Source of the DNA: Prosthecobacter sp. | Lineage (GTDB): Bacteria > Verrucomicrobiota > Verrucomicrobiia > Verrucomicrobiales > Verrucomicrobiaceae | Length of the DNA stretch: 58,524 nt | Direction of reading: 5' to 3' | Assembly (NCBI RefSeq): GCF_029946185.1 | Contig: NZ_JAQSEA010000085.1 | Location: forward strand, 1 to 58,524 | Shown: piece after piece, positions 34,987-43,656 of the stretch | Position numbering within the stretch: position 1 is the first letter of the stretch | How the letters are laid out: every line of letters begins with the position of its first letter | Position numbers and translations under genes: made by a program | Notes under the pieces: model-generated | What the model saw: only the letters and a program-made list of their open reading frames with translations | Told to the model about the DNA's origin: nothing | Database searches by the model: none

Positions 34987-36252
34987 TCACTTATCCTGCA
35001 CCCGCTCAAGCTGCGCACCCAGTGCCGCCAGCTTGTCATCCAGATGCTCGTAACCACGATCAATGTGATAGAGGCGGTGAATCTCGGTCTTGCCTTCAGC
35101 CACCAGCCCAGCGAGAACCAGCGCGGCTGAGGCACGCAAATCTGAAGCCATCACAGGAGCGCCCTTCATCACACTGCCACCGCGAATGCGGGCGGTAGCA
35201 CCCTGGAGATCAATGTTGGCTCCCATGCGCTTCATTTCGGCGCAGTGCATGAAGCGCTGCGGGAAGATGGTTTCAGTGATGGTGCTGGTGTCATTGATGA
35301 CACAGGCGAGCGCGCACATCTGCGCCTGCATGTCGGTGGGAAAGCCGGGATAGCAGAGTGTGGTAAGATCGAAGCCTTTGGCATTCGGATTGGGCCGGAC
35401 GGTGATGCTGTCCTTGGTGATTTCGATGGGGAAGCCGCATTTGATCAGCGCATCCGTGATGGTCTTCATGTGCTCTGGCATGACACGCTTCAAGGTGACG
35501 CCGTCACCCAGCATCGCGCCAGCCACGAGGAAGGTGCCGGCCTCGATGCGGTCAGGAATGACGATGTGCTCTGCGCCATGCAGTTCCTTCACGCCTTCAA
35601 TGGTGATGCGGTTCGTGCCTGCGCCTTCGATCTTCGCGCCCATCTTGATGAGGAAGTTCGCCAGATCTTCGACCTCCGGCTCAGCGGCTGCGCCTTCAAT
35701 CGTGGTGGTGCCTTTGGCGAGCACTGCGGCCATCATGACATTGTCCGTGCCGAGCACGGTGGAGCCGTGCTTGCCCATGAGATTCATCGGGCCGCCTTTG
35801 AAGCCTTTTTTGGCATTCACAAAAATGTCGCCACCTTCCACGAGGATCTGTGCGCCGAGTGCTTCGAGACCTTTGAGATGGAGATCGACTGGACGGTCCC
35901 CGATGACGCAACCACCCGGCAGAGAAACCGTACACTCCTTCAGCCGCCCCGTGAGCGGGCCGAGCACGCAGATGGAGGCACGCATTTTGCGCACCAGTTC
36001 ATAAGGCGCGACGGATTTGATCTTCTCCGCCTTCACGACCACGACGCCGCTGGCTCGCTCCACCTCCGCACCGAGTTCTCCGAGGATGCGCACCATGTAG
36101 TTGGTATCGCTGAGATCAGGCACTCGGCGGATGGTGCAGGTGTCTTTGGTGAGCAGCGTCGCCGCGAGAATGGGCAGCGAGGAGTTCTTTGAACCGCTGA
36201 TGTTGATGCGGCCCTTAAGAGGTGCGCCGCCGTGAACGATGAGTTTTTCCAT
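34987..36252 (-). CDS. murA: UDP-N-acetylglucosamine 1-carboxyvinyltransferase
   Basis: First committed step of peptidoglycan synthesis: transfers enolpyruvate from PEP to UDP-GlcNAc in the cytoplasm. 421 residues, the normal family length. Lys22 (GSKNSSLP) and catalytic Cys115 in PGGCVIGDRPVD sit at the same numbers as in E. coli MurA, so fosfomycin sensitivity would be expected. The EPSP-synthase repeats are intact, with GTDNVMMAAVLA and PGFPTDMQAQ. It is divergent from blaI, sharing the 138-base region that holds the BlaI-type operators, so murA could also be under that repressor; this is an inference. Confidence 0.97.
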   Translation of the reverse strand: MEKLIVHGGAPLKGRINISGSKNSSLPILAATLLTKDTCTIRRVPDLSDTNYMVRILGELGAEVERASGVVVVKAEKIKSVAPYELVRKMRASICVLGPLTGRLKECTVSLPGGCVIGDRPVDLHLKGLEALGAQILVEGGDIFVNAKKGFKGGPMNLMGKHGSTVLGTDNVMMAAVLAKGTTTIEGAAAEPEVEDLANFLIKMGAKIEGAGTNRITIEGVKELHGAEHIVIPDRIEAGTFLVAGAMLGDGVTLKRVMPEHMKTITDALIKCGFPIEITKDSITVRPNPNAKGFDLTTLCYPGFPTDMQAQMCALACVINDTSTITETIFPQRFMHCAEMKRMGANIDLQGATARIRGGSVMKGAPVMASDLRASAALVLAGLVAEGKTEIHRLYHIDRGYEHLDDKLAALGAQLERVQDK

Positions 36253-36348: not shown

Positions 36349-36386
36349 GGATTACATGCGTAATCCGTGGATCACGTTTGTAATCC
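36349..36386. promoter_or_regulatory. Two tandem operators before blaI
   Basis: A perfect palindrome GGATTAC-ATGC-GTAATCC (36349-36366) and a near copy GGATCAC-GTTT-GTAATCC (36369-36386) lie with centres 20 bases apart, ending 4 bases before the blaI ATG. This layout is typical of autoregulated winged-helix repressors of the BlaI/MecI family. An A/T-rich stretch (36322-36335) just upstream could be part of the promoter. Confidence 0.75.
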
Positions 36387-36390
36387 GACC

Positions 36391-36795
36391 ATGGCACGCC
36401 GCACACCAACACCTCCCGCCCCGAAGATTTCCGATGCCGAATGGACGGTGATGAAGGTCCTGTGGGAACGCGGGACCAGCACTCTGGCCGAAGTCGTCAA
36501 AGATCTCGAAGGCCGACTGCACTGGAAGCCGCGCACGGTGCAAAGCCTCATCCGCCGCCTCACCGACAAAGGGGCGCTCGCCGTCGAAGCCGTGGGCCGC
36601 GAGTTCCGCTACACCCCCGCCGTGGCCCAGGACCAATGCCAGCACGAAGAGAGCCGCAGTTTCCTGGATCGCGTCTTCAATGGCCGCCTCACCCCGTTCG
36701 TCGCCGGGCTCATGGATCGTGAAGATGTCTCGCAAGATGACCTCGCCGCGCTGCGTGAAGTGCTAAATCAGGCTGAGAAAAAACTCAAAAAGTAG
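36391..36795 (+). CDS. BlaI/MecI/CopY-family transcriptional repressor
   Basis: 134 residues from the Met of MARRTPTPPAP. Winged helix-turn-helix: ISDAEWTVMKVLWERGTSTLAEVVKDL, then PRTVQSLIRRLTDKGAL, followed by a C-terminal dimerisation helix (LAALREVLNQAEKKL). In this family the regulator is removed by cleavage or signalling from the adjacent M56 peptidase. The start was chosen at 36391 because it follows the operators; the upstream in-frame ATG (36367) lies inside them. Nine bases separate it from the M56 gene. Confidence 0.92.
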   Translation: MARRTPTPPAPKISDAEWTVMKVLWERGTSTLAEVVKDLEGRLHWKPRTVQSLIRRLTDKGALAVEAVGREFRYTPAVAQDQCQHEESRSFLDRVFNGRLTPFVAGLMDREDVSQDDLAALREVLNQAEKKLKK

Positions 36796-36804
36796 TCCCA
36801 TCCC

Positions 36805-38589
36805 ATGAATGCCGACACCCTCCTCCACTGGCTGCTGCGCACCTCGCTTGAGGCCAGCCTCTTGATCCTCGCCGTGCTGGGACTGCGCCTCATGCTCGGC
36901 ACACGCCTCAGTCCCGCATGGCGCATCGGCCTCTGGCTCCTCGTCGGGGCCAAGCTAATTCTCCCCGCCTTCATCCCCGCAGGCTTCGGCCTCGGAGCCT
37001 GGTTTCAGCAGGATGCAGTGGCACAAATTTCCCCCGCTCCCGCAGCTTTCGTTTCCCCCACCGATTCAGGCAACCCGCAGATTCTTTCTGATTCAACCCG
37101 TGTTGCCCCTGAATCTGCGGGAATCCTTTCTGCATACACAGTGGCTCTCGCCCTCTGGCTGACGGGCACCCTCTTCGTTCTCGCCGCTGCACTTCACCGC
37201 CAGCGCCGCTTCGATCTCACTCTCCGCCAGCGCCCACTCGCCACCGCGCCCCTCCTCCGTGCCCTCATCGCAAGCCTCTCTCAAAAGGCAGGCATCCATC
37301 CGTCCACGCGTATCATCCTGATGCCACCAGGCACCACCCCCGCCGTCGTCGGTATCGCTCAGCCAAGCATCCTTCTCCCCGAAGATTGGCAGACACGCTT
37401 TGACGAACACAGCCTCCGCCACGTCCTGCTCCACGAACTCCTCCATGTGAAGCAGCATGATTTGATCTGGAACTGGGCCGCCATCGCCGTGCAGGCGCTC
37501 CATTGGTTCAATCCGCTCGTCTGGTTCGTCGTCTCACGCTTTCAGGCAGACCGCGAACTCCGCTGCGATGCAGGCGTGCTCGCACTCCTCTCCCCCACCG
37601 AGCGCCTCGACTACGGCCACACCCTTCTCCGCATTCAGGAAACCTTTTTCGCACCACCGGCCATGGCAGGGTTGGCCCCATGCGTGCGCAACCACCCCAC
37701 CCTGCGCCAACGCATCCATATGATAGCCCACCCAACCGCCCGCCAGCCTGTACTGCAACTGCTGCTCGTCCTCACGCTGAGCACACTCGTCTGCTACTCA
37801 TTTACCACCGCGCGTGCGGCGGAAAAACAAGTCCCCGCCAAAGAGCGCAGCCGTGAGGGCGCGCGCGCTCCCGAAGCTGAAAAGCCCAAGACCGGCGCAA
37901 GTGAAGAGGGCAGCCCTGCACGCACCCGCGAGGGTGACGGCGGAACGAAAAAGCCCGGCATACGTGAAGGAGACGGTGGCACCAAGAAACCCGGAACAGG
38001 CGACGGTGAAAGCACTCGTAAAACCGGCGCACGCGATGGTGATGGCGGCACGAAGAAGCCTGGCATGCGTGACGGCGAAGGCGGAGCGAAGAAACCTGGC
38101 GCTCGTGATGGGGAAAAACCACGCACTGGAGAACGTGAGGGCGAAGGCAGCAAGAAGCCCGGCATGCGCGAAGGTGACAGCGGAACCAAGAAACCCGGTG
38201 CACGCGATGGGGAAAGCACCAATAAAACCGGTGCCCGCGATGGAGAAAAGCCGCGCACAGGAGAGCGTGATGGTGAAGGCGGCAAAAAGACCGGCGCACG
38301 AGATGGTGAAGGCAGCAAGAAAACGGGAGCCAACGACGGCGACAAGTCCGACACCTCGAGCGAGACGATCACTCTCCGCGTGATCAAAAATGGCGAGGCC
38401 GTGTTGGTGGGTGAAGAAGAAGTCTCCATGAGCCGCCTCCGAGGCCACCTCAGCACCTTCCTTCCCGACCACGCCGCAGCCAAAGTCGTCGTCACCGGCG
38501 ACGACAACATCCCGCTGAGCGCACTTCACAACACCGTCGATGCCGTGCGTGACAACGGGAACAAGAAGGTCGGGATCAAGGTGGAGTGA
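36805..38589 (+). CDS. M56 (BlaR1-like) metallopeptidase with repeat linker and ExbD-like C-terminus
   Basis: 594 residues. Membrane protease part (1-~345) with HELLH at 210-214, preceded by ILLPEDW, and a last helix (LQLLLVLTLSTLVCYSF). The following ~30 residues are Lys/Glu-rich. Residues ~375-512 contain about 12 copies of an R-[DE]-G-[DE]-x-x-x-K-K-[PT]-G unit of 10-12 residues. The end (ITLRVIKNGEAVLVGEEEV to VGIKVE) matches the periplasmic domain of ExbD/TolR (VVVTGDDNIPLSALHNTVDAV). The usual beta-lactam sensor domain is absent. Paired with blaI. It may sense an envelope signal and release BlaI, a model taken from BlaR1 rather than shown here. Confidence 0.88.
   Translation: MNADTLLHWLLRTSLEASLLILAVLGLRLMLGTRLSPAWRIGLWLLVGAKLILPAFIPAGFGLGAWFQQDAVAQISPAPAAFVSPTDSGNPQILSDSTRVAPESAGILSAYTVALALWLTGTLFVLAAALHRQRRFDLTLRQRPLATAPLLRALIASLSQKAGIHPSTRIILMPPGTTPAVVGIAQPSILLPEDWQTRFDEHSLRHVLLHELLHVKQHDLIWNWAAIAVQALHWFNPLVWFVVSRFQADRELRCDAGVLALLSPTERLDYGHTLLRIQETFFAPPAMAGLAPCVRNHPTLRQRIHMIAHPTARQPVLQLLLVLTLSTLVCYSFTTARAAEKQVPAKERSREGARAPEAEKPKTGASEEGSPARTREGDGGTKKPGIREGDGGTKKPGTGDGESTRKTGARDGDGGTKKPGMRDGEGGAKKPGARDGEKPRTGEREGEGSKKPGMREGDSGTKKPGARDGESTNKTGARDGEKPRTGERDGEGGKKTGARDGEGSKKTGANDGDKSDTSSETITLRVIKNGEAVLVGEEEVSMSRLRGHLSTFLPDHAAAKVVVTGDDNIPLSALHNTVDAVRDNGNKKVGIKVE
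37927..38340 (+). repeat. In-frame minisatellite encoding the charged linker
   Basis: About 12 tandem copies of a 30-36 base unit, variable in sequence, encode the linker of the M56-ExbD protein. The repeated protein unit is rich in Gly, Lys, Arg, Asp and Glu. Copy number may differ between strains. Confidence 0.8.
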
Positions 38590-38655: not shown

Positions 38656-38752
38656 GGCCAAATGACGCATGAGTAAATCCGAATGACGAAATAACACCCA
38701 ATGTCGAACGCAGACTCCAACCACCGCCGAATGCAGGGTTCGTCATTTGGCC
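38656..38752. repeat. 12-bp inverted repeat of the ATGACG/CGTCAT family at the start of the lyase gene
   Basis: GGCCAAATGACG (38656-38667) is the exact reverse complement of CGTCATTTGGCC (38741-38752). Between and after the arms are more ATGACGAA and CGTCATT words. The right arm and the words after it lie inside the coding sequence and encode part of the signal peptide of the lyase. Confidence 0.7.
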
Positions 38753-40272
38753 CTCGTCATTTGTTTGTCGTTCTCATTTCGGCATTCGGCATTTGGTCGT
38801 TCGCAATGGCAGCGACTCCTGCTGAAGTCCGTGCTGCGGTCACCAAGGCTGTTTCCTTCTACCATTCCAAAGCGGCGGCTCATGGCGGCTATGTCTATAG
38901 ATACAGCGCCGACTTCGCCCTGCGTGAGGCCGAAGGCATTCCCGCGCCGGACACGATCTGGATCCAGCCTCCGGGCACACCGGCGGTCGGCATGGCGATG
39001 CTGGATGCTTACGAAGCGACGAAGGATGCAAAGTGTCTCGCGGCGGCGGTTGAGGCGGCACATGCGGTATCGCGTACGCAACTGGCTTCAGGCGGCTGGG
39101 ATTATGCGGGACATTTCGATGAGAAGAACCGGGCGGCGCAGCTTTATCGTCGAGATTCAGATGGCAAGCTCGTCGAGCGCAAAAAGGTGCCGGAGGGTGA
39201 AGGTGGCTGGCATGCCTGGAAGCGGCACCAGAACAAGAACAACTACTCCACGTTTGATGATGATGTCTCGCAGGCCGCGACGCGGCTGCTGGTGCGGGTG
39301 GATCACGCGCTTGGTGGCAAGGATGGTGAGATCAAGGAGGCGGCGGAGTTTGCGCTGAGCGCGATCATGGCCACGCAGTATCCGGCGGGTGGATGGAGCG
39401 CAAACTGGGACTCGTGGCCGAGTGCGCCGCCACCGGTGGCGATGTATCCTATTAAGACGGGCAGTTATCCCGCCGACTGGCCGCGCAAGTGGCCGAAGGA
39501 TTTCACCGGGTGCTATGTGCTCAACGACAACACGCACGCAACGCTGATGAGCACGCTGCTTCTCGCATGGCAGCTGCGCGGTGATGCCAAGTGTCTGAAT
39601 GCGGCGAAGCGCGGGGGGGATTTTCTCATCACGGCGCAGATGCCGGGCTCGCAGCCAGCGTGGGCGCAGCAGTATGATGCGGACATGCACCCGGCGTGGA
39701 GCCGGGCCTTTGAACCGAGCGCGATTTGTGGACGCGAAAGTCAGTCGGCCATGTGGGCGCTGCTGAAGCTGGCGTCGGCCACGGGAGACAAGAGATACCT
39801 GGCTCCGCTGCCGCGTGCGCTGGCGTATTTGCGCAAGTCGCTGCTGCCGGACGGGAGGATCGCACGCTACTATGAGCTGCAGACCAACAAGCCGCTGTAC
39901 TTTGAGCGTGGCGAAGGCGGCAAGGGGTTTGTGCTGACTTATTCGGACACGAAGGCCTCCTCCAACTACGGCTGGAAGTGGGACAGCGAGCTGGAGACGC
40001 TGGGGGCGTTTTGGCAAAAGATCGAGCGCAGCGAGCCAGTGATTTTCCCCCGGGTTGAGAAAGAGCGCTGGGCTTCGCCACCGACTGAGGCTGACATCGC
40101 AACGATCTTAAAAGAGCAAAAAAACGATGGCTCCTGGCCTGTGACCGATGAAGAGCGCGGCTGGATGCGCGATGCGAGCGGCAAGAAAACCAAACCCGCC
40201 GGTGGTGTGATTTACAGTCTCGATTTCGTGCAGAATGTGAAAGCGCTGACCACCTGGCTCAAGGCCAGGTAG
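38701..40272 (+). CDS. Pectate lyase-like secreted protein (PL10-type alpha/alpha barrel)
   Basis: 523 residues with N-terminal signal (LFVVLISAFGIWSFAMAA). The body shows alternating helices with ASGGWDYAGHFDEKN, NNYSTFDDDVSQAATRLLV and YPAGGWSANWDSWP blocks, matching the PVC pectate-lyase (PL10-like) family; later NDNTHATLMSTLLLAW. This family would cleave polygalacturonate by beta-elimination, but the catalytic Arg/Asp set was not confirmed. The Met at 38731 is an alternative start. Followed after 32 bases by the PSD1 gene, giving a three-gene operon. Confidence 0.82.
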   Translation: MSNADSNHRRMQGSSFGPRHLFVVLISAFGIWSFAMAATPAEVRAAVTKAVSFYHSKAAAHGGYVYRYSADFALREAEGIPAPDTIWIQPPGTPAVGMAMLDAYEATKDAKCLAAAVEAAHAVSRTQLASGGWDYAGHFDEKNRAAQLYRRDSDGKLVERKKVPEGEGGWHAWKRHQNKNNYSTFDDDVSQAATRLLVRVDHALGGKDGEIKEAAEFALSAIMATQYPAGGWSANWDSWPSAPPPVAMYPIKTGSYPADWPRKWPKDFTGCYVLNDNTHATLMSTLLLAWQLRGDAKCLNAAKRGGDFLITAQMPGSQPAWAQQYDADMHPAWSRAFEPSAICGRESQSAMWALLKLASATGDKRYLAPLPRALAYLRKSLLPDGRIARYYELQTNKPLYFERGEGGKGFVLTYSDTKASSNYGWKWDSELETLGAFWQKIERSEPVIFPRVEKERWASPPTEADIATILKEQKNDGSWPVTDEERGWMRDASGKKTKPAGGVIYSLDFVQNVKALTTWLKAR

Positions 40273-40304: not shown

Positions 40305-42257
40305 ATGAACATCCACCATCCAAGCCTGAGAAGATCATGCCTCTGCGGCGCTCTCGTCTCTGCGATATTCCTCTCAGCTCTGCCTCTTCCCGCTTCCGAG
40401 AAATACGAAAACGCAACGCCGTGGTCCTACCAGCGCATTATGCGTCCAGCGGTGCCTGCGGTCAAAGACGCCGCATGGCCGAAGGATGACATTGATCGTT
40501 TCATTCTCGCACGGCTGGAAAAAGACAGTCTGCACCCCATTGGCGATGCCCCGCGTGTGACACTCATCCGCCGGGCTTCGTTTGATCTGCGCGGGCTGCC
40601 GCCGACGCAGGAGGAGGTGGAGCGTTTTGTGAAGGATGCAGCGGCGGATGATGTGGCGTTTGCGAAGGTGGTGGATGCGTTTCTGCTAAGCGAACGTTTT
40701 GGCGAACGGTGGGCGCGGCACTGGCTGGATGTGGTGCGGTATGCGGACAGCGTGGGCCGGGTGTGGAATGCGCCGTTTCTGTATGCTGCGCGGTATCGGG
40801 ACTGGGTGATTGATTCGCTCAACGTGGACAAGCCCTACAATCGCTTCTTGGCAGAGCAGATCGCGGGTGATTTGCTTGCGGCGAAAACGGTTCTCCAGCG
40901 CCGCGATCAAATCGTCGGCACGGGCATGCTCGCACTCGGCAGCATGAACCTGCAGGAAGGCAACTACGAGCAGCACTTGCTCGATCAGGTGGATGACCAG
41001 ATCGATGTGGTGTCACGCGCGTTTCTGGGACTCACGCTGAGCTGCGCGCGCTGCCACGATCACAAAACCGAGCCGGTGAGCCAGAAGGACTACTATGCGC
41101 TGGCGGGGATCTTTTACAGCAGCCGCACGCTCACTGGCACGCCGAACCGCAATGATGAGGCCCGCGGTGGCTATGTCAGCGCGGAGGCGCTGGTGGATTT
41201 GCCCACCGCGCTGGATGAGGCCGTGGGCCCGCCCACACAACTACCTGCGGGCGTTCATTCAATGGATGACATCCGCACGTTGGGCAATCCCAAGGAAACC
41301 GTCCGCTACGATCACGATCCGCATTTTTGCATGGGCGTGATCGAGGGGGAGATCAAGGACTGCGAACTCGCGGTGGGTGGTGATCCATTTGACCGCCAAG
41401 CCGCTCCGGACCGGGGGGTGCTCGGCCTGCCTTCTCTGCCCCCGCTGCCGAAGATCCCGGCGAAGTCCTCCGGGCGGCTGGAGCTGGCGCAATGGATGAC
41501 GCAGGCTACGCACCCGCTGACTTCGCGGGTGGCGGTGAACCGCCTGTGGCAGCATTTATTTGGCGAGGGCATCGTGCGCACGGTGGATGACTTTGGCACC
41601 ACGGGCAGCGATCCCACGCATCCGGAATTGCTCGACCATCTGGCGATTCGTTTCGTTGAGGGCGGGTGGTCCGTGAAGAAGATGATCCGCACGCTGATGC
41701 TCAGTCGCACGTATCGCCTGGCGAGCACGGGAAATCCTGAACATCCCGACGCTGGGAACAAGCTGCGCTGGCGGATGAATCCCAAGCGCCTCGAATTGGA
41801 GCCGCTGCGGGATACTCTGCTGCAACTGGCGGGCAAGCTCACGTTTGAGCGTCCCGAAGGTGTTCAGGTGGTGGGAACAGGAGGTAAAGGACGGCATGGA
41901 GTGACGCGTGGATTGCTCAGCCCCGAGGATCCTTATCGCACGATCTACCTGCCGGTGGTGCGTGACAATGTTCCTGAACTCTTCAGCACCTTTGACTTCC
42001 CTGGACCCACGCAGATCAAGGGGCAGCGCGATGTCACCACGGTGGCTCCGCAGGCCTTGTTTTTCATGAACAACCCGATGGTGGAAGAGTTGTCTGCTGA
42101 GATCGCGGGCGAAAGCGGAAAGGATGTCAAAGCCGTCTATCGACTTGTCCTGGGTCGAGAGCCGTCCAGCGAAGAAACTCGCGATGCGGCCGAATTGGAT
42201 ATGCAAACGCTTGTGCAGGCCCTGCTGGGCACGGCGGAATTTCGATATGTGTTTTAA
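40305..42257 (+). CDS. PSD1 (DUF1549/DUF1553) PVC-specific protein
   Basis: 650 residues with signal peptide MNIHHPSLRRSCLCGALVSA. DUF1549 with DLRGLPPTQEEVERF, RFGERWARHWLDVVRYADS and the CARCHDHK heme-like CxxCH motif; DUF1553 with SRVAVNRLWQHLFGEGIVRTVDDFG and LMLSRTYRLA. PSD1 proteins are restricted to Planctomycetes and Verrucomicrobia and regularly precede a DUF1501 gene, as here (15-base gap). Function unknown; a role in degradation of complex, often sulfated polysaccharides has been proposed. A 650-aa length is short compared with PSD1 proteins that carry an N-terminal cytochrome domain. Confidence 0.93.
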   Translation: MNIHHPSLRRSCLCGALVSAIFLSALPLPASEKYENATPWSYQRIMRPAVPAVKDAAWPKDDIDRFILARLEKDSLHPIGDAPRVTLIRRASFDLRGLPPTQEEVERFVKDAAADDVAFAKVVDAFLLSERFGERWARHWLDVVRYADSVGRVWNAPFLYAARYRDWVIDSLNVDKPYNRFLAEQIAGDLLAAKTVLQRRDQIVGTGMLALGSMNLQEGNYEQHLLDQVDDQIDVVSRAFLGLTLSCARCHDHKTEPVSQKDYYALAGIFYSSRTLTGTPNRNDEARGGYVSAEALVDLPTALDEAVGPPTQLPAGVHSMDDIRTLGNPKETVRYDHDPHFCMGVIEGEIKDCELAVGGDPFDRQAAPDRGVLGLPSLPPLPKIPAKSSGRLELAQWMTQATHPLTSRVAVNRLWQHLFGEGIVRTVDDFGTTGSDPTHPELLDHLAIRFVEGGWSVKKMIRTLMLSRTYRLASTGNPEHPDAGNKLRWRMNPKRLELEPLRDTLLQLAGKLTFERPEGVQVVGTGGKGRHGVTRGLLSPEDPYRTIYLPVVRDNVPELFSTFDFPGPTQIKGQRDVTTVAPQALFFMNNPMVEELSAEIAGESGKDVKAVYRLVLGREPSSEETRDAAELDMQTLVQALLGTAEFRYVF

Positions 42258-42272
42258 CCTTTCAATTTCAAT

Positions 42273-43619
42273 ATGACCACACGTCGCTCCATACTCCAAT
42301 CCACCAGCACCGGCTTCGGCTGGCTGGCGTTTAATGCGCTGCATCAGCAGTGGGCGAATGCAGCAGCACCGCCGAAGACGATCAATCCGCTGGCACCGAA
42401 GCCGCCACACTTTGCGGCGAAGGCGAAGCGGGTGATTTTCATGTTCATGCAGGGCGGGCCGAGCCACCTGGACACGTTTGACTACAAGCCGGAGCTGGCG
42501 AAGGCGGAGGCGAACAAGGTGCAGAAATACATGGGCTCGGCGTTTGAATTCAAACCGCGCGGCAAGAGCGGGATCATGATTTCGGAAGCGTTTCCTGAGC
42601 TGGCAAAGCAGGCGGATGATCTGTGCCTGCTGAACGGCATGCAGACGCGGACCAATGCGCACCAGATGGCCACGGTGGCGCTGCACATCGGCAGCGAGAC
42701 CTTTGTGCGGCCTTCGATGGGCGCGTGGATTGTCTATGGTCTCGGCACGGAGGCGGAGGATCTGCCGGGCTTCGTCACGATCAATCCCGTGGGCGACGGT
42801 GGTGCGATGAATTACGGCAGCGCCTTCTTGCCCGCGTCCTTCCAAGGCACGCGCCTCGTCAGCGGTGGCAGTGGAGTGCCCGACTTGAGCAATGGACGGC
42901 TCAGTGATGCGCAGCAGCGCAAGCAGATCGAGTTCATCCAAAAGGCCAATCGGAAGCTGCTCAGTGGTGATCCCGGCAATCCGGAGATCGAGGGCATCAT
43001 CCAGAGCTATGAGCTGGCCTACAAGATGCAGACGAGCGTGCCTGAAATGCTGGATCTCGACAAAGAACCGCAGCACATCCGTGACATGTACGGGCTCGAC
43101 GAGTCAGAAACGGAGCGCTTCGGCACGCAATGCCTCATGGCCCGCCGCATGGCGGAAAAAGGCGTGCGCTTCATCCAGCTTGGCTCCCCTGGCTGGGATC
43201 ATCATAACAACCTTCGAGAGGGTCTCGCGCGGCAGTGCACCTCCATCGACAAACCCATCGCCGGACTTATCGCCGATCTCAAACAGCGCGACATGCTCAA
43301 AGACACCCTCATCATCTGGGGCGGCGAATTCGGTCGCGGCAGCGGCTACGACAACGAACCCTACAACGGTCGTGGTCACAACGGCGGCGGCTACACCATG
43401 TGGATGGCCGGTGGCGGCGTGAAGGGTGGCTTCACTTACGGCAGCACGAATGAAATGGGGAATACAGCGGAGACGGGCATCATCGGCACGCATGATCTGC
43501 ATGCCACGGTGCTGCATCTGCTGGGCATCAATCACGAGCGGCTGACGTATCGGTATGCAGGAAGGAATTTCCGGCTGACGGATGTGAGCGGCGAGGTGGC
43601 GAAGGCGATTTTGGTGTGA
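42273..43619 (+). CDS. DUF1501 protein with Tat-type signal
   Basis: 448 residues. N-terminal TTRRSILQSTSTGFGWLAF signal, then VIFMFMQGGPSHLDTFDYKP, GWDHHNNLREGL and WGGEFGRG/GRGHNGGGYTMWMAGGGVKGG segments. DUF1501 belongs to the alkaline phosphatase/sulfatase-like superfamily; no formylglycine Cys is visible. Companion of the PSD1 gene upstream in the same operon. Its 3' end faces the gene at 43633 with 13 bases between and a terminator on the boundary. Confidence 0.93.
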   Translation: MTTRRSILQSTSTGFGWLAFNALHQQWANAAAPPKTINPLAPKPPHFAAKAKRVIFMFMQGGPSHLDTFDYKPELAKAEANKVQKYMGSAFEFKPRGKSGIMISEAFPELAKQADDLCLLNGMQTRTNAHQMATVALHIGSETFVRPSMGAWIVYGLGTEAEDLPGFVTINPVGDGGAMNYGSAFLPASFQGTRLVSGGSGVPDLSNGRLSDAQQRKQIEFIQKANRKLLSGDPGNPEIEGIIQSYELAYKMQTSVPEMLDLDKEPQHIRDMYGLDESETERFGTQCLMARRMAEKGVRFIQLGSPGWDHHNNLREGLARQCTSIDKPIAGLIADLKQRDMLKDTLIIWGGEFGRGSGYDNEPYNGRGHNGGGYTMWMAGGGVKGGFTYGSTNEMGNTAETGIIGTHDLHATVLHLLGINHERLTYRYAGRNFRLTDVSGEVAKAILV

Positions 43620-43625
43620 GTTGCG

Positions 43626-43656
43626 CGGAGGGCTAACCTCCGATTGCCTTTTTGAG
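43626..43656 (+). terminator. Terminator of the DUF1501 operon
   Basis: CGGAGG (43626-43631), loop GCTAA, CCTCCG (43637-43642), then TTTTT near 43650. The hairpin lies 6 bases after the DUF1501 stop and overlaps the 3' end of the convergent gene. Confidence 0.55.

Follow-up and report, generated by a model that had tools for sequence, protein, structure and literature searches.

In a 58,524-nt contig of Prosthecobacter sp. (NZ_JAQSEA010000085.1 of assembly GCF_029946185.1, read on the forward strand; hereafter the window, and contig C85 in our genome scans), the gene at positions 36805 to 38589 encodes a fusion protein in which a BlaR1-type M56 metalloprotease is joined through a linker of R-[DE]-G repeats to a C-terminal domain with the periplasmic fold of ExbD and TolR. 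We lean towards the view that this protein is the receptor of a BlaI/BlaR1-type induction switch in which a tethered ExbD/TolR-type domain stands in for the penicillin sensor and provides the input for a linked operon. Receptors of the BlaR1 type are mainly known for sensing antibiotics, and the same switch would here have been given a different input and a different likely output. The original prediction, made from the sequence alone, had called the architecture undescribed, and we likewise found no paper describing an M56-linker-ExbD protein in the open-access literature, judged on titles and abstract openings.

An ExbD/TolR-type domain at the position of the penicillin sensor

The identity of the protease half is clear from Peptidase_M56, which covers residues 10-307 with 182.9 bits (cut-off 31; Pfam), and from the conserved active site that bears out its original assignment. 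The HELLH motif lies at residues 210-214, and across 33 sequences H214 and E251 are invariant and H210 and E211 nearly so; E251 is presumably the third zinc ligand of the M56 site. Four hydropathy peaks are centered near residues 24, 52, 120, and 325 and have matching helices in the structural model, which would place the protease between transmembrane (TM) helices TM3 and TM4 and the C-terminal part outside. Both the protease core and the C-terminal domain are confident in the full-length model. Even at E-values up to 10, Pfam finds only the M56 and ExbD domains in the fusion protein and no transpeptidase or other penicillin-binding domain (the SxxK sensor). The ExbD-like domain sits at the position of BlaR1's penicillin sensor.

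That the C-terminus has the periplasmic fold of ExbD, as originally proposed, is supported by profile search and structure prediction alike. At residues 515-593, the Pfam profile ExbD (PF02472) scores 29.1 bits against a cut-off of 25.4, or 32.3 bits if only the domain is scored, and the match spans profile positions 48-125 of 128. Because this match starts only at profile position 48, the fusion has the periplasmic part of ExbD without its TM helix. A PDB sequence search with an alignment of 37 C-termini (alignment A1, i.e., the window and 36 of 40 fetched loci of relatives, without L098, L110, L126, and L132) gave ten best rows that are all ExbD/TolR, the best with an E-value of 5.2e-5. The AlphaFold2 model of the 80-residue domain has a predicted local distance difference test score (pLDDT) of 91.3 and a predicted template modeling score of 0.81, and the eight best chains that Foldseek found with it are all ExbD or TolR. 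A second structural comparison yielded Z-scores of 9.8 for ExbD (8p9r) and 9.6 for TolR (5by4).

True ExbD works through a membrane aspartate, the essential D25 in the TM helix of E. coli ExbD, together with ExbB. The original prediction had connected the fusion to use of the proton gradient with ExbB and TonB, but this part did not hold. The nearest helix before the ExbD domain is TM4 of the protease, ca. 180 disordered residues away, and none of 33 aligned proteins has Asp or Glu at TM4 residues 316-334 (alignment A2, i.e., the window and 32 of the 40 loci, with the exclusions of A1 plus L112, L118, L124, and L125, whose starts were left unplaced). The genome has nine MotA/ExbB matches, none of them on the window contig, though a partner could be encoded elsewhere in the genome; TonB has no match on the contig either. 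Use of the proton gradient is unsupported because TM4 carries no acidic residue and the contig no ExbB, and we rejected the proton-motor reading of the fusion, which also lacks the TM helix of ExbD.

The main alternative to an envelope glycan as ligand is a TonB-like peptide, i.e., the ExbD-like domain would bind a disordered TonB/TolA-like peptide as true ExbD does and thereby report energized transport. Several of the best structural matches are indeed ExbD with a TonB or D-box peptide (8p9r, 8vgc, and 8vgd), eight of the nine stand-alone ExbD genes of the genome share a contig with an ExbB, and the only TonB_C match over cut-off in the genome lies on contig C172 together with ExbB and ExbD. 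However, neither ExbB nor TonB matches anything on the window contig (the neighbors in relatives were searched with six window genes, the MurA-type gene, and a thioesterase only), and we consider this alternative quite unlikely.

Distribution and selection

We scanned 288 genomes of the order with the A1 profile, 68 of them in the family and 220 outside. Sixty-three of the family genomes match the fusion protein somewhere, and a copy scoring at least 57 bits is present in 49 of the 68, which provides the count of the fusion across genomes. Rows below these 49 score at most 50.4 bits and are mostly stand-alone ExbD genes. Where the frame is short among these 49, it appears to have been cut by a contig end, except in G016, G048, and G053, where the frame is broken upstream. 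G009 of genus g6 encodes a further, weaker fusion (39.9 bits with A1 and 38.5 with Pfam) with both domains over cut-off. Outside the family, a single genome of 220 (G069) exceeds 57 bits, and a scan of 387 genomes of the phylum (E <= 1e-9) found only the five genomes of the family above 48 bits. Weaker fusions may exist beyond these matches because those of family f3 (see below) score 17-30 bits with A1 and are mostly unseen by Pfam. All 34 named loci of the contig scan are from Verrucomicrobia, including four from Prosthecobacter, one from the cultivated Brevifollis gellanilyticus NBRC 108608 (L187), and two that depositors labeled Akkermansia muciniphila.

Most orthologues in the family have both the repeats and the C-terminal domain, and neither this distribution nor the predicted fold refutes the original prediction of the architecture. 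The ratio of nonsynonymous to synonymous substitution rates (dN/dS) is 0.10-0.29 for the ExbD domain in seven of eight pairs (the eighth is not computable) and 0.10-0.25 for the protease in all eight; purifying selection acts on the ExbD domain with about the same strength as on the protease. Seven long-frame ExbD matches (L201, L204, L205, L210, L212, L238, and L239) were rejected as candidate fusions because they resemble ordinary ExbD genes, TM helix included, that are extended upstream out of frame; L204 and L212 were judged from adjacent reading frames and not from the ExbD frame itself.

Linker, last helix, and possible shedding of the sensor

The charged repeat linker is as first described, with 12 R-[DE]-G motifs that all lie within residues 350-501 and none elsewhere in the fusion protein. 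Its DNA contains imperfect repeats of 33-36 bp, and residues 333-518 almost all have pLDDT below 50 in the full-length model and are thus predicted to be disordered. All eight genera of the family that were read have an R-[DE]-G linker. Two loci (L042 and L043, i.e., G040:C137 and G041:C100) have linkers with an extra non-repetitive insert of ca. 75 residues.

This persistence could mean that the input actually comes through the charged linker or the TM region, e.g., by binding of a polyanionic polysaccharide or a response to ions, with the distal tails only anchoring or tuning the receptor. Such a role would agree with a linker type that is kept in eight genera while the ends change in f3, with locus L126, which has no distal domain, and with the pectate-lyase-like gene that follows the protease in most uncut family loci. 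Against this stand the purifying selection on the ExbD domain and its presence in 49 of 68 family genomes, and we judge this scenario unlikely.

Directly behind TM4, all 33 proteins of A2 have alanine at position 338 and Ala, Gly, or Ser at position 336. Outside A2, inspection by eye found FGADRP in place of this AxA motif in L194 and VKA in L126. The motif is signal-peptidase-like, and turnover as in BlaR1 of Staphylococcus aureus is plausible by analogy. There, signal peptidase sheds the sensor by cleavage right after the last helix (Gly331), which is modeled as turnover when ligand is absent (PMC9834060). Alternatively, TM4 might mainly be a signal peptide, in which case the linker and ExbD domain would be cut off constitutively as a soluble periplasmic protein and the protease would signal separately. 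The invariant spacing of small residues at -1 and -3, the documented shedding in S. aureus, and a lipobox-like LTAC after the corresponding helix of a paralogue in the window (L005) would all suit such processing, whereas the deviating motifs of L194 and L126 and the ligand-free turnover in the S. aureus model do not, and we regard it as improbable.

A blaI-type repressor gene and tandem operators

The original prediction had paired the protease with BlaI, and a Penicillinase_R gene does lie just upstream of the fusion gene (118.8 bits, cut-off 22.6, profile positions 1-115 of 115). We prefer its ATG at 36391 as start because the listed GTG at 36367 stands directly behind a palindrome, GGATTACATGCGTAATCC (operator 1), and touches a second one, GGATCACGTTTGTAATCC (operator 2). 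These two operators are predicted BlaI sites through which BlaI would repress the operon. Upstream of blaI, the exact core ATTAC-N4-GTAAT is found at 51 of 58 loci compared to 2 of 11,600 base-shuffled upstream regions, and tolerating one mismatch raises this to 53 loci with one or more sites, 51 of them with two. This count includes related blaI-M56 loci of f3 and omits one of 59 loci (L116) as too short; among the five misses (L106, L115, L126, L256, and L260), L106 and L115 do have sites that the start mapping had missed. The two tandem sites match the four-protomer pattern of Clostridium BlaI (PMC8457756).

Across 48 genomes of the genus, the perfect palindrome occurs 34 times, with 29 copies beside blaI (those of G051 and G052 rest only on a blaI match in the fetched locus) and five directly before a DUF1549-DUF1501 gene pair, while the reversed pattern used as control has no match. 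Four imperfect single sites were also found, two of which lie inside long open reading frames (G000:C187 and G023:C284) and one (G053:C10) without any of the six query genes nearby; the fourth is G050:C489. In the window's own genome, allowing up to two mismatches gives ten places, two of them at blaI, versus three for the reversed control. One of the eight other places was followed and lies in coding sequence, and we do not claim a wide BlaI regulon.

On their other side, the operators lie ca. 100 bp before the start (36252) of a divergent MurA-type gene. Fifteen of the 40 loci, all from the same genus, have such a gene there, whereas none was found in the remaining 25, some of which have little upstream sequence. 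As an enzyme type of peptidoglycan precursor synthesis, this neighbor is a weak hint at a link to peptidoglycan. Together with the BlaI/M56 pair itself, it could also be taken to indicate a usual response system for beta-lactams or other cell-wall antibiotics. We consider this highly improbable: the protein has no penicillin-binding domain, the genes of the conserved order are neither beta-lactamases nor penicillin-binding proteins, and the operators persist in the 25 loci in which the MurA-type gene was not found (again, some with short upstream sequence).

Linked genes and candidate regulon

Downstream of the protease, the putative operon continues with genes for a pectate-lyase-like protein, a PSCyt2/PSD1 (DUF1549/DUF1553) protein, and a DUF1501 protein, followed by a terminator-like site at 43626 (the terminator scan is at chance level overall). 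The order blaI-M56-lyase-DUF1549-DUF1501 is complete in 21 of the 40 fetched loci, which represent five genera (that of the window, g3, g4, g9, and g11), and G009 adds a sixth genus with all five genes. Contig ends or the limits of the fetched region cut 11 of the 40 (L095, L098, L100, L110, L113, L126, L128, L129, L130, L131, and L132). In f3, blaI-M56-DUF1549-DUF1501 occurs without the lyase gene in L253, L254, L255, L257, and L258.

The strongest indication of a target comes from the five DUF1549-DUF1501 pairs with an operator of their own (G020, G026, G028, G039, and G050, with a tandem pair of sites in G026 and G050), which are an independent outcome because the search pattern had come from the window's own blaI site. 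That these pairs lie apart from blaI is seen directly in G020 and G026, where 12 kb of the blaI-M56 locus contain no DUF1549 gene; in G028, G039, and G050, the contig with blaI is truncated, and the operator occupies the position that the lyase gene has in relatives. The region upstream of DUF1549 in G052 is cut by a contig end and not classable. Across the operator from four of the five pairs lies a divergent thioesterase gene (4HBT_2, 77.1 bits; L086 in G026, L087 in G050, L088 in G020, and L089 in G028), and the fifth pair is at a contig end. No thioesterase of this kind was found in the window or near the 40 blaI-M56 loci, and we favor the DUF1549 gene as target because it does occur at those loci, whereas the thioesterase does not. 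In G006, a DUF1549 match of 54% identity is present without any M56-ExbD match, and the 6 kb that were read show no operator.

The BlaI/M56 switch appears to control probably exported proteins from families of unknown function rather than antibiotic resistance, as far as gene order and operator placement can tell. The lyase-like protein and the PSCyt families point to work on polysaccharides. Brevifollis gellanilyticus, one of the species with the fusion, is described as a gellan degrader. In freshwater Verrucomicrobia, PSCyt families have neighborhoods with sulfatase and pectin-lyase-like genes (PMC5615132).

Proposed mechanism

At rest, BlaI bound to both operators would repress its own gene and those for the protease, the pectate-lyase-like protein, PSCyt2/PSD1, and DUF1501, and it would also repress the PSCyt2/PSD1-DUF1501 pair where this lies apart. 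On its linker, the ExbD-like domain could reach through the periplasm and, like ExbD and TolR, bind a ligand of the envelope, for which peptidoglycan or another envelope glycan is the likeliest candidate. Binding would alter the dimer state of the domain, and this change would pass via TM4 to the cytoplasmic metalloprotease, which would then cut BlaI and so induce the operon. Signal-peptidase cleavage at the AxA motif may shed sensors that have found no ligand. S. aureus BlaR1, which forms a domain-swapped dimer and cleaves BlaI, offers a precedent (PMC9834060).

Peptidoglycan or another envelope glycan is our first guess for the ligand because the periplasmic domain of ExbD is a switching dimer that binds peptidoglycan and whose interface is affected by it (PMC10771500), and because TolR has a cryptic peptidoglycan-binding activity (PMC4646322). 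By analogy to Bacillus licheniformis, where a cytoplasmic peptidoglycan fragment can act directly on BlaI (PMC3305447), such fragments could contribute here as well. Of the original proposal that the protein is a sensor reading the state of a TonB-like machine or of peptidoglycan, the sensor role is plausible and can now be tied to operators, a small candidate regulon, and a gene order that is conserved; the motor part is the one that we abandoned.

If this switch operates as proposed, it provides a candidate regulator, operator, and operon for the PSCyt2/PSD1-DUF1501 pair, whose families still have no assigned function in Pfam. The function of this pair would become testable once the inducer is found. 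The architecture also suggests a ligand-sensing role for the ExbD fold that needs no proton motor.

Exchangeable distal modules

The M56 proteins of the related f3 loci retain a repeat linker but carry a variety of distal parts. The A1 profile detects an ExbD-like domain with 17-30 bits in L247-L255 and L257, while the Pfam ExbD profile is over cut-off only in L254 and below it in L253, L255, L257, and L258. An ExbD-like domain followed by further repeats and EF-hands is seen where EF-hand is over cut-off (L253 and L254) or just below it (L255 and L257). Other blaI-linked M56 proteases of f3 end in EF-hands alone (L259 and L264) or in other charged tails (L256, L260, L261, and L263).

ExbD-like domains also occur on other proteins. 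A receptor-like Ser/Thr kinase in G116 of family f2 (L236:404-3328, minus strand; Pkinase 174.6 bits) has two C-terminal ExbD-like stretches (64.1 bits). On contig C220 of the window's own genome, a long open reading frame cut by the contig end (L016:829-2700, minus strand) has a hydrophobic start and a partial ExbD match at residues 326-400 (26.5 bits). Together, the f3 variants and these two proteins support the ExbD fold as an input module of receptors. We tentatively extend this, with somewhat less than even confidence, to the Verrucomicrobiales as a whole: the ExbD/TolR periplasmic domain would be a motor-free sensor module of M56 proteases and Ser/Thr kinases, and its BlaI/M56 version, in which the distal modules on an RDG-repeat tether can be exchanged, would be the dedicated regulator of PSCyt2/PSD1-DUF1501. 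The divergent thioesterase and the Pfam misses in f3 weaken this wider proposal.

Observations that weigh against an ExbD-based switch

Several observations speak against the switch proposed here or against its assumed input and output. With regard to the input, the distal parts in f3 vary between ExbD-like domains, EF-hands, and other tails; Pfam finds no ExbD in L247-L252, where the A1 profile does; and the ExbD match in L109 is barely over cut-off (25.6 bits). L126 keeps blaI, M56, the linker, and the DUF1549 gene but has no ExbD. Together with the f3 variants, L126 means that the ExbD domain is not indispensable for the switch. Peptidoglycan is named as ligand by analogy.

With regard to the output, 8 of 29 uncut loci are without part of the gene order (L102, L107, L108, L112, L114, L115, L116, and L118), and the lyase gene is absent between the genes in G005 and G001. 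No orthologue-grade DUF1549 match was found in G040, G041, G043, and G053, and no DUF1549-type genes lie downstream in L235, although the sensor persists in all of these. Short fragments of DUF1549/DUF1501 are present in G016 (L230) and G017 (L114) where relatives hold intact genes, so that the linked pair seems to be decaying there while the regulator gene remains (with a broken frame in G016). The operators of the separate pairs could serve the thioesterase as well as, or instead of, the DUF1549 gene because they lie between the two. Finally, a promoter and terminator scan that was at chance level overall revealed no sigma-70-type promoter close to the operators.

Comparison with known systems

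The known kind of system is the BlaI/BlaR1 switch; what is new is the input domain and the likely output. Like BlaR1/BlaI of S. aureus and B. licheniformis, the locus combines an HExxH M56 protease and four TM helices with an adjacent BlaI-type repressor, palindromic operators, a predicted extra-cytoplasmic domain behind TM4, a small candidate regulon that would be autoregulatory, and a signal-peptidase-like site after the last helix. It differs in the part behind TM4, where a disordered linker of 180 residues and an ExbD/TolR-type domain take the place of the penicillin-binding domain, and in its linked genes for a lyase-like protein, PSCyt2/PSD1, and DUF1501. With ExbD/TolR (PF02472), the domain shares the periplasmic alpha/beta fold at the Z-scores and Pfam score given above, but it is fused behind a protease, without the TM helix with its proton-carrying aspartate and without ExbB/TolQ on the contig.

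BlaI regulons of Clostridium thermocellum similarly have paired inverted-repeat operators and are very small and self-regulated, though their operator is of GTCTAT type and their target genes are others (PMC8457756). The PSCyt2/PSD1 proteins belong to the same families as those of planctomycete type, which are reported from Verrucomicrobia with PSCyt2 usually beside an unknown family; in the window, a BlaI/M56 switch is linked to the PSCyt2/PSD1-DUF1501 pair, whereas the excerpted text of PMC5615132 mentions no regulator.

Features of the window and further M56 proteins

Table 1. Coordinates of the fusion gene, its parts, and the linked features in the window.
Feature	Position	Strand	Basis
MurA-type gene (EPSP_synthase family), divergent from blaI with the operators between	34990-36252	-	Pfam
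Operator 1, perfect palindrome GGATTACATGCGTAATCC	36349-36366		sequence; conserved upstream of blaI in relatives
Operator 2 GGATCACGTTTGTAATCC, 20 bp downstream of operator 1	36369-36386		sequence; conserved
blaI-type repressor gene (Penicillinase_R)	36391-36795	+	Pfam; start choice inferred
M56 protease-repeat linker-ExbD-like fusion, 594 residues	36805-38589	+	Pfam and model
BlaR1 peptidase M56 domain, residues 10-307	36832-37725	+	Pfam and conservation
Last TM helix with terminal AxA motif, residues 316-338	37750-37818	+	hydropathy, A2 column counts; cleavage inferred
Disordered charged linker with R-[DE]-G repeats, residues 339-518	37819-38358	+	motif count, DNA repeats, model
ExbD/TolR-type periplasmic domain, residues 519-594 (Pfam match 515-593)	38359-38586	+	Pfam, PDB sequence search, model, Foldseek
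Pectate-lyase-like protein (PF09492)	38701-40272	+	Pfam 50.4 bits (cut-off 22); synteny
PSCyt2/PSD1 (DUF1549/DUF1553) protein	40308-42257	+	Pfam 242.4 and 251.3 bits; synteny; own operator in five genomes
DUF1501 protein, last gene of the unit	42273-43619	+	Pfam 462.5 bits; synteny

M56 proteases with exchangeable C-terminal domains seem to be common in this genome. By eye, three other M56 proteins (L002, L003, and L004) have long C-termini that resemble carboxypeptidase-regulatory-like repeats, a penicillin-binding transpeptidase, and STN-like repeats. The paralogue L005 at positions 1-2126 of the window is a second M56 protease in which the lipobox-like LTAC after the last helix is followed by a secretin and SLBB-like part (again by eye).

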